From positions 1 to 41,172 of the forward strand of contig DATKDW010000072.1 in NCBI GenBank assembly GCA_035512495.1: a stretch of 41,172 nt of DNA. The letters are read 5' to 3'. Source of the stretch: Acidimicrobiales bacterium (GTDB taxonomy: Bacteria > Actinomycetota > Acidimicrobiia > Acidimicrobiales > CADCSY01). A program made the translations under genes and the position numbers. Below, one piece after another: positions 31,138-40,218 of this stretch; the first letter of the stretch is position 1; every line of letters begins with the position of its first letter. The notes beneath the pieces were generated by a model. It made no database searches. It was not told where the DNA came from and saw only the letters and a program-made list of their open reading frames with translations.

Positions 31138-31159
31138 ATGCTGTATAATGATGCTGTAT
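31138..31159 (+). promoter_or_regulatory. vapBC promoter with overlapping direct repeats
   Basis: A perfect -10 hexamer TATAAT (31144-31149) lies only eight bases before the vapB ATG (31158), predicting a leaderless or nearly leaderless mRNA; no clear -35 is seen. Two direct copies of ATGCTGTAT (31138-31146 and 31151-31159, period 13) overlap the -10 and the start codon and are candidate VapB operators. Confidence 0.6.
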
Positions 31160-31376
31160 GTCGTCGACCCGAACGCAGGTGTATCTCACCGAGGAGCAGC
31201 GTCGTCGCATCGACGCCGTCGCCGATGCCGACGGCGTGACGATGGCCGAGGTGATCCGGCGCGCCCTCGACGCCTACCTGGAACGCGACGGTGACCCTTC
31301 TGCCGCCCTGAAAGCCTCCTTTGGGGCTGACCCGGACGCGACCATGCCCGATCGTTCTGAGTGGGACCGTGGCTGA
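31158..31376 (+). CDS. vapB: Ribbon-helix-helix antitoxin (VapB/CopG-like)
   Basis: A 72-residue protein with an N-terminal ribbon-helix-helix: the strand TRTQVYLTEEQ, helix RRRIDAVADADG and helix VTMAEVIRRALDAYLERD. The acidic, flexible C-terminus (ADPDATMPDRSEWDRG) is typical of a toxin-neutralising tail. It overlaps the PIN-domain gene by eight bases, the usual antitoxin-first order. It should bind VapC and, as a complex, repress the promoter at the overlapping repeats. Confidence 0.87.
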   Translation: MSSTRTQVYLTEEQRRRIDAVADADGVTMAEVIRRALDAYLERDGDPSAALKASFGADPDATMPDRSEWDRG

Positions 31377-31716
31377 CGTCCTCGTCGACACCGACATCTT
31401 CATCGATCACTTGCGGGGTGCCGCTGTCCTCTCCCCCGGCAAGCACCGACTGCACTACTCGGTGGTCACCCGCGCCGAGCTTTTCGCCGGCAGCTCGGCC
31501 ACCGATCTCGTCCACCGGCTGCTGTCGCCCTTTCGGGAGATCCTTGTTGACCGTGCCATCGCCGAACGCGCCGGCCGGGTCAAGAACGAGACCAGGATCC
31601 CGATGCCAGATGCCCTCATCGCCGCCACCGCCCTCGAGCGGGGTCTGAGCGTGGCCAGTCGCAACACGCGCCACTTCCAGTCGGTGCGTGGTCTGCGCCT
31701 GCGCTCGCTCGCCTGA
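31369..31716 (+). CDS. vapC: PIN-domain ribonuclease toxin
   Basis: The 115-residue PIN-domain protein should cleave a structured RNA, often tRNA or rRNA, with Mg2+. Acidic active-site residues are visible in DVLVDTDIFIDHL (Asp7), VTRAELFAGS (Glu) and MPDALIAATAL (Asp); the fourth position lies in VASRNTRHFQSV. GTG 31369 is chosen because it begins just before the first catalytic strand and overlaps vapB; an earlier in-frame start at 31321 would add 16 residues antiparallel to good vapB codons. The toxin is intact, so the pair is probably functional. Confidence 0.87.
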   Translation: MADVLVDTDIFIDHLRGAAVLSPGKHRLHYSVVTRAELFAGSSATDLVHRLLSPFREILVDRAIAERAGRVKNETRIPMPDALIAATALERGLSVASRNTRHFQSVRGLRLRSLA

Positions 31717-31793: not shown

Positions 31794-31819
31794 CCCGGGG
31801 GTGTTGAGGCAACCCCGGG
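31794..31819. terminator. Hairpin between vapC and the XRE remnant
   Basis: CCCGGGG (31794-31800) pairs with CCCCGGG (31813-31819) across a 12-base loop, 78 bases past vapC. There is no T run, so it is only a possible terminator for vapBC. Confidence 0.35.
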
Positions 31820-31849
31820 ACCTCTGTCGGCTCTTTACTTCTGGGCTTG

Positions 31850-32097
31850 GCCTCATAGCGCTGGATCTGCTGTTCGGCGACACCGAGGGCATCAGCGAGC
31901 TGGCGTTGGGTCCAGTCCCGTGCGACCCGAGCCTTGATCAACAGGGTCGCGAGCTCGGCCAGCGACGACGCTTCGATCGAGGAGACCTCCCCGGACCGCA
32001 GCCGTTCGAACTCTTGCCACTCGGCCCGCAGATCTGCGGCCTGGGCGCGGGCTGCGTCGATCTCGAGCTGGGCCTCGGTGTGGAATGCGAGGCGCTG
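31850..32097 (-). pseudogene. Decayed XRE-family helix-turn-helix regulator
   Basis: Reading the minus strand from about 32097, a stop (TAG, 32098-32100) is followed by QRLAFHTEAQLEIDAARAQA, a coiled stretch with LRSGEVSSIEASSLAELATL, and a clear HTH_3 motif ARVARDWTQRQLADALGVAE with QQIQRYEA. Beyond QRYEA the homology ends in unrelated proline-rich sequence. The pattern matches a common family of about 150-residue XRE proteins in which a coiled region precedes the HTH; here both the N-terminal part and the end of the HTH domain are missing. It has no start codon and no full domain, so it is a remnant. It may once have been linked to the toxin-antitoxin locus. Confidence 0.6.
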
Positions 32098-32158: not shown

Positions 32159-32266
32159 GCCAGCGGCCCGAGGGCGCTGCGTTCTAGTCGTGGCCCCTCG
32201 ACGCCCTGAACGCCGAATGTGTGGGTGATCGAGCACGCTCGCGTGTCCACCCGCGACACTCGCCCG

Positions 32267-33151
32267 ATGGAACACCGGGGACGCAGGCACCGGACGACGA
32301 CCTCGATTCCACTCACCTTCGATGTCCCTGGCCGGTCGCTGCACTGTCCGATGGTCACGGCGACCATCGCGGGCTGCACGACACAGCTCATCGTCGACAC
32401 CGGCGCGACGGCCCACCTGCTGACCACGGACCTCGCGCAACGCGCGGGTTTGCATCTCACGGCGGCAACCCCGGGACGCGACGTCGCAGGCGATCTCGTG
32501 CCGAGTTGGAGGGTCGGTGACGTGCCCGTCGACCTCGAGAGCTCCAGCATCATGCTTCAAGAAGTCGTCGCGATAGACGGCCCAGAGCCATTCCGCGACT
32601 GGGGCGTCGGCGGTTTCTTGAGTCCGCAGGCACTCGCAGTCGATGCGACCGTGCTCCTTGACCTGGCGACCGATCGAATCGACATCGTCGGCGACGAATC
32701 CGCGACCGCCGTAGCTGACCTCGTCCGCCGGTTCGACAACTCTGTACTGCTGGAGGGTACGCGGCACGCCGCGGGCACGCTCGGGATCCACGTTCGGGTC
32801 CCGCCCGCTCGTCCCGTGGTCGCGATCTTCGACACAGGAGCGGCCGAGACCGAATTCGCGGCCGACGCCCTCGAGACAACCGTCGACGGGGTGGTGCGAC
32901 TCAGCGGCAAAGGCGTCGGCGGCTCAGAAATCAGAGTGACGATCCTCAAGGACCAGGATCTCGACATCGGAACCGTTCAACTCCGAGTGCCCAACCTTGG
33001 GGTTCGCGACGAGATCCCCGCACCGCATGATGCTGCGGAGAGCGAAATCCCGCGCGCGCTCATCGGGATGGACGTCCTGCGCGGCACCGCCATCGCGATC
33101 ACGACTCCCGATCAAGGATCGGTCTGGTGGTGCGTGCCGAACCAGGGATGA
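32267..33151 (+). CDS. Two-lobed retropepsin-like aspartyl protease
   Basis: A 294-residue protein with two aspartyl-protease motifs: QLIVDTGATAHLL (Asp44) and VAIFDTGAAETEF (Asp189), each preceded by a hydrophobic strand. Each is followed about 75-80 residues later by the hydrophobic-Gly element that supports the active site (WGVGGFLSPQAL and RALIGMDVLRG). Bacterial retropepsin-like proteins usually carry one DTG and must dimerise; here both lobes are on one chain. No signal peptide or membrane helix is seen, so it is cytosolic. ATG 32267 is preferred; GTG 32219 would add 16 poorly conserved-looking residues. Its stop lies 27 bases before repeat copy A. The substrate is unknown. Confidence 0.78.
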   Translation: MEHRGRRHRTTTSIPLTFDVPGRSLHCPMVTATIAGCTTQLIVDTGATAHLLTTDLAQRAGLHLTAATPGRDVAGDLVPSWRVGDVPVDLESSSIMLQEVVAIDGPEPFRDWGVGGFLSPQALAVDATVLLDLATDRIDIVGDESATAVADLVRRFDNSVLLEGTRHAAGTLGIHVRVPPARPVVAIFDTGAAETEFAADALETTVDGVVRLSGKGVGGSEIRVTILKDQDLDIGTVQLRVPNLGVRDEIPAPHDAAESEIPRALIGMDVLRGTAIAITTPDQGSVWWCVPNQG

Positions 33152-39751: not shown

Positions 39752-39893
39752 CGCGCGCCTGAACGGGCCACAGGTGACAGGGCCGAGAGAGAACCTGCGG
39801 GCGTGGTCGAGGCCTTGTGGCGGCGTGCCGTGTCTCAAGACTTCGACGGCACGTCGCGCCTAGCGTGTGGCCAAATCGACGGAGGGAATTGTC

Positions 39894-40148
39894 ATGGCAG
39901 AGAGCGTGTACACCGTGGTCGAGCTCATCGGGACGAGTACGAAGTCATGGGAGAAGGCGGCCGCAGCGGCGGTGACGAAGGCATCGCAGTCGCTACGTGA
40001 TCTTCGGGTGGCCGAGGTCGTCGAGCTCGACATGCAGCTCGAGAACGGGAAGGTCTCGGCATACCGCGCCAAGGTCAAGGTCTCGTTCAAGTACGAGGCG
40101 AGTTCAAAGTCTCCGGCAAAGAAGAAGGCTGCCTCCCGCCGGAGCTGA
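39894..40148 (+). CDS. Dodecin with a basic C-terminal tail
   Basis: Dodecins are small dodecameric flavin-binding proteins that store or buffer riboflavin, FMN or FAD (and CoA). The 84-residue sequence has the family pattern VYTVVELIGTSTKSWEKAAA, AVTKASQSLRDLRVAEVVEL and the last strands GKVSAYRAKVKVSFKYE. About 14 extra residues, mostly Lys/Arg/Ser/Ala (ASSKSPAKKKAASRRS), follow the usual dodecin end. GGAGGGAA precedes ATG 39894. It is the only gene between repeats F and G. Confidence 0.9.
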   Translation: MAESVYTVVELIGTSTKSWEKAAAAAVTKASQSLRDLRVAEVVELDMQLENGKVSAYRAKVKVSFKYEASSKSPAKKKAASRRS

Positions 40149-40218
40149 GGAGAGGGCGACTCGGAACCGCACCACCGCAAGGGCTCGGGCCCGCGGCGGT
40201 GGCACGCTGCGACAGAAC

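Follow-up and report, generated by a model that had tools for sequence, protein, structure and literature searches.

The locus and its neighbors

A protein with two retropepsin-like lobes, P0001, is encoded on the forward strand at positions 32267 to 33148 (294 amino acids; span 32267 to 33151) of the window, i.e., the whole 41,172-nt stretch of the Acidimicrobiales contig analyzed here. Its reading frame is unbroken (294 codons, no internal stops) and gives the best codon score, even along its whole length and coding-like. A GTG at 32219, 16 codons upstream, could serve as an alternative start, with a TGA in the same frame at 32207. Neither a promoter nor a terminator pattern was detected. 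The initial annotation described a single chain with two DTG motifs about 145 residues apart, and the translation confirms it: the motifs occupy residues 44 to 46 (VDTGATAHLL) and 189 to 191 (FDTGAAETEF), so that both catalytic aspartates, D44 and D189, are present on one chain at a spacing of 145. In both lobes the DTG is followed by Ala.

Two features lie upstream, outside the protease gene. A vapB-like (RHH) and vapC-like (PIN) pair, recognized by domain matches, occupies positions 31158 to 31716 of the forward strand, and several host family genomes contain similar DNA. The divergent neighbor is a fragment of an XRE-type helix-turn-helix gene on the reverse strand (31801 to 32097; HTH_3, E = 3.1e-8), which looks broken at both ends and part of which matches another genome of the host family at 71% DNA identity. 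The P450 gene at 29887 shows 81% DNA identity to one in the host family, and a Rieske protein encoded in the flank is 60% identical to another host family protein; these two matches rule out a foreign contig in the bin. The protease gene itself is absent from the 11 other host family genomes searched, and no DNA match to its stretch was seen in that family. Its absence there, combined with the host family character of the flanks, makes horizontal acquisition likely. The earlier description of the unit as mobile-looking is thus partly borne out, by this distribution, the host-like flanks, and the position beside vapBC and the helix-turn-helix fragment, and partly not: no repeats marking the ends of an element stand out between 31 and 35 kb.

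Two retropepsin-like lobes

P0001 matches the Pfam family PF13650 (Asp_protease_2, clan AA) with E = 1e-12 and 49 bits, exceeding the cut-off of 24.3. Most of this score comes from lobe 1 (approximately residues 15 to 145; positions 32309 to 32701, forward strand), where the match covers residues 30 to 104. Lobe 2 (approximately residues 165 to 294; positions 32759 to 33148, same strand) is weak on its own: two PF13650 stretches are seen at E ≤ 1, only one of them at E ≤ 0.01. In a PF13650 search across the host genome P0001 is the sole match, and lobe 1 alone is marked. The score against NCBIfam model TIGR02281 is 24, below its cut-off of 58. No pepsin (MEROPS A1) family is found among the Pfam matches up to E = 1, and a eukaryote-type pepsin was rejected on this ground. 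A role in defense was also rejected, as the matches to the PADLOC candidate PDC-M08B are weak (4e-4) and limited to the stretches around the DTGs.

Profile comparisons support lobe 2 as a second lobe. The family profile of lobe 1 aligns with that of lobe 2 over 64 columns, in register at the DTG (E = 5.6e-7), and a profile of lobe 2 alone matches 9iy9, Ddi1, HIV-2, and other retropepsin entries of the PDB; on these two results the two-lobe reading of P0001 stands. In the profile search of the PDB, retropepsins come out on top, with tethered HIV-1 protease dimers matched in two stretches (E = 1.3e-9). The chain 9iy9_A, annotated as "Exported protein," also gives two matching stretches (E = 2.6e-6), and a DTG is aligned in both of them. 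Such two-stretch matches indicate that a single chain with two lobes of this kind is feasible. The initial view of P0001 as a single-chain, two-lobed, retropepsin-like protein is therefore upheld at the level of sequence and profile similarity. AlphaFold2 models of P0001, alone and with its relative L036, are of low confidence (pLDDT of 33.2 and 32.8, respectively).

The lobes differ in the motif that follows the DTG. In lobe 1, the DTG (positions 32396 to 32404, forward strand) precedes the family-conserved His50, and the place of the psi-psi-Gly motif is taken by FLSPQ (residues 117 to 121; positions 32615 to 32629, forward strand), with Ser for Gly. In lobe 2, the DTG (positions 32831 to 32839, forward strand) is followed by LIGMD (positions 33059 to 33073, forward strand), a canonical psi-psi-Gly motif. 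A supporting Gly motif, previously assigned to each DTG, is thus found in lobe 2 (ALIGMDVL) and missing from lobe 1 (GGFLSPQAL). The substitution is no local defect: [FIV][LIV]SPQ is seen in nearly the whole family, and lobe 1 lacks the Gly family-wide. It weakens the claim of a canonical psi-loop in lobe 1 and leaves the PF13650 domain match unharmed.

A family centered in Myxococcota

Searches with P0001 alone were insufficient to recover its family. Such scans of collections of genome contigs, viral contigs, plasmids, and phages gave no match, and the single-protein matches to L003, L034, and L035 are weak; L003 was discarded as a relative, there being no DTG protein at the matching site. 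The family was reached by profiles built through L033 and L036. The former, from a genome of another class of the same phylum as P0001, matches it at 34% and is truncated by the contig end; aligning L033 with P0001 then gave access to L036, from a Nannocystaceae metagenome-assembled genome, with 37% identity over residues 9 to 291 of P0001. In all, 34 relatives were recovered, nearly all from one class of Myxococcota, giving a family alignment of 35 rows with P0001. A three-row profile gave hits in 41 of the 289 genomes from that class and in a single genome of the 396 sampled from the window's own phylum. Further scans of viral collections with the family alignments gave no match, so that a phage or viral origin of the gene finds no support in either set of scans. 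No paper on the two-lobed family was found in the open-license literature.

P0001 aligns with the family across both lobes and carries its GxGGFLSPQ-type and DTGAxxH motifs in lobe 1. The lobe 1 Asp is conserved in all 33 rows that cover the site, with a His six residues further on in nearly all of them. The second DTG of P0001 aligns with the lobe 2 DTG or NTG of the 34 relatives, and its DTG-to-DTG spacing falls within the family range of 135 to 161. Conservation of the second Asp among homologues, on which the earlier reading was to be judged, is seen in 32 of the 35 rows and fails in the three nearest relatives, L033, L036, and L040, which have NTG.

The proposal that the architecture is uncommon does not survive this survey. 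Two-DTG chains (L004 and L005) occur in the window's own bacterial class, the family extends over the Myxococcota genomes counted above, and 9iy9_A has two DTGs as well. P0001 represents a widespread bacterial kind, of which it is a stray member, and not a rare architecture. Its acquisition by the actinobacterium from a Myxococcota-like donor is likely, the direction being inferred from the distribution of the family.

Export signal and location

A lipobox-like signal is detected by a simple pattern in 24 of 32 relatives, and several more are evident by eye; a lipoprotein signal is thus frequent in the family without being present in every member. P0001 has neither a signal peptide nor a lipobox in frame. 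None of the ORFs upstream of it shows an export signal either, which speaks against a frame error hiding one. The suggestion that the protein is cytosolic is therefore plausible for P0001 itself and does not extend to most of its relatives; P0001 would either act in the cell or have lost its export signal. In addition, lobe 2 of many relatives contains conserved cysteines that are missing from P0001, in keeping with either a cytosolic copy or decay.

Decay of the acquired gene, with loss of its 5' end and export signal and an unexpressed or nonfunctional remnant as the outcome, would explain the missing signal in a family whose members mostly carry a lipobox. The TGA just upstream of the first start and the fragmentary state of the adjoining helix-turn-helix gene point the same way. 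However, the 294 codons contain neither a stop nor a frameshift, the codon score is coding-like throughout, and the main motifs are retained; we consider decay unlikely. What the window gene chiefly adds is the absence of an export signal from the DTG/DTG form that lies closest to the NTG group. That absence is worth keeping, together with the DTG-to-NTG change in the nearest relatives and the family-wide SPQ of lobe 1.

Phylogeny and the DTG/NTG subclade

In the family tree, P0001 groups with L036 (Nannocystaceae), L040, and L033 (support 95/86), and the latter three form a cluster to the exclusion of P0001 (support 97/84). The branch leading to P0001 is long, with 1.31 changes per column. 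The simplest reading is a single D-to-N change in lobe 2 after P0001 branched off; alternatively, an N-to-D reversion in the P0001 lineage is possible. In known aspartic peptidases, Asn in place of a catalytic Asp would abolish catalysis. The Asn in lobe 2 of the three nearest relatives suggests that activity may be lost in the P0001 subclade, and the missing psi-psi-Gly glycine of lobe 1, the long P0001 branch, and the lack of promoter and terminator patterns also count against the peptidase reading.

P0001 might accordingly be a noncatalytic peptide-binding protein, from a subclade that is losing or has lost proteolysis, with a two-lobed cleft that holds a polypeptide and leaves it uncut. 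All three of its nearest relatives share the NTG, P0001 stands on its long branch beside them, and the pepsin family is known to include bilobed relatives that are inactive (PMC2761423; PMC11313796). P0001 itself, however, retains DTG in both lobes, each followed by Ala as in active retropepsins, and the family as a whole nearly always keeps the lobe 2 Asp, which renders a purely binding role rather improbable. The presence of both DTG/DTG and DTG/NTG members would allow one to test whether one aspartate is dispensable.

The lobes form two distinct conserved types, DTGAxxH in lobe 1 and DTGAxx[ST][DE] in lobe 2. In a tree of single lobes, all lobe 1 sequences lie beyond one branch (support 98), and the lobe 2 sequences fall together with a support of 33, i.e., unsupported. 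Their separation suggests that the duplication predates the spread of the family and is not P0001's own. A tentative and possible wider reading is that the family arose by bacterial duplication and fusion of a retropepsin-like half, giving a pepsin-like single-chain peptidase with lobes that are still alike and with a subclade between DTG/DTG and one-Asp DTG/NTG forms.

Proposed activity and comparison with known peptidases

P0001 is probably a divergent single-chain, two-lobed, retropepsin-like aspartic peptidase with a clan AA fold of the PF13650 type, which belongs to a family centered in one Myxococcota class and was probably acquired horizontally. Its lobes would pack as an internal pseudo-dimer, and D44 and D189, by analogy with clan AA enzymes, would come together where the lobes touch, activating a water molecule for the cleavage of a peptide held between the lobes. 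For the family, the most likely substrate is an envelope or periplasmic polypeptide.

Prokaryotes have been reported to contain both bilobed monomeric pepsins and dimeric retropepsins (PMC12239564; PMC2761423). A two-DTG chain might also work intermolecularly, as a dimer in which every lobe pairs with one from the partner chain, given that single-lobe bacterial retropepsins, RloA among them, form dimers (PMC12239564). This is very unlikely for P0001, since the asymmetry of its lobe motifs better fits a fixed internal heterodimer. RloA of Pseudomonas, a bacterial, exported, retropepsin-like protein, shares the DTG with the P0001 family and differs from P0001 in having one DTG per chain and being dimeric (PMC12239564). 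The MEROPS A2 retropepsins are homodimers with one lobe per chain, whereas P0001 carries two lobes on one chain. The bacterial clan AA proteases of PF13650 and TIGR02281 have the DTGA motif and the domain in common with P0001 but not its two lobes per chain.

Single chains with two lobes offer closer parallels. Like P0001, 9iy9_A (420 amino acids) has two DTG stretches on one chain, and both align with the lobe 2 profile; it is distant (E ~ 1e-5), has a longer N-terminal part, and its first DTG domain ends in LGMD, where the P0001 family has SPQ. The engineered tethered HIV-1 protease dimers share the single-chain, two-lobe layout, but theirs is man-made and their lobes are identical or nearly so. 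Bacterial homologues of family A1 pepsins (Rawlings and Bateman 2009, PMC2761423), among them the shewasins, resemble P0001 as bilobed single chains in bacteria that are predicted to be intracellular. In contrast to these A1 homologues, P0001 matches retropepsin-type Pfam families, and profiles still detect sequence similarity between the two lobes of its family. Pepsin is thought to have arisen when a one-lobed, retropepsin-like ancestor was duplicated and fused, but hardly any sequence similarity is left between its lobes (PMC2761423). A family in bacteria with recognizably similar lobes thus offers a convenient model for this duplication-fusion step.

Other observations

Several further arrangements were seen among the proteins examined. 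In Myxococcota, the two-lobed gene directly follows a gene for a Clp-type AAA+ ATPase on the same strand in six relatives (L069, L070, L075, L083, L085, and L086); this is not true of the window copy, and the ATPase was rejected as a conserved neighbor. In L047, L056, and L057, two-lobed paralogues form a tandem pair, the second of which lacks a lipobox by the pattern used. In the window's own class, L006 and L011 represent a two-domain group with DTGG in the first domain, VDSGLE in the second, and a helical-looking N-terminal part. Two bins of the same class (L014 and L029) contain ORFs that resemble polyproteins of LTR retroelements (protease plus reverse transcriptase) and are probably eukaryotic contamination. 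Within the window, the stretch at approximately 39813 to 40160 is repeated on contigs C15 and C86 of the host genome with 92 to 96% identity and is possibly a mobile element.
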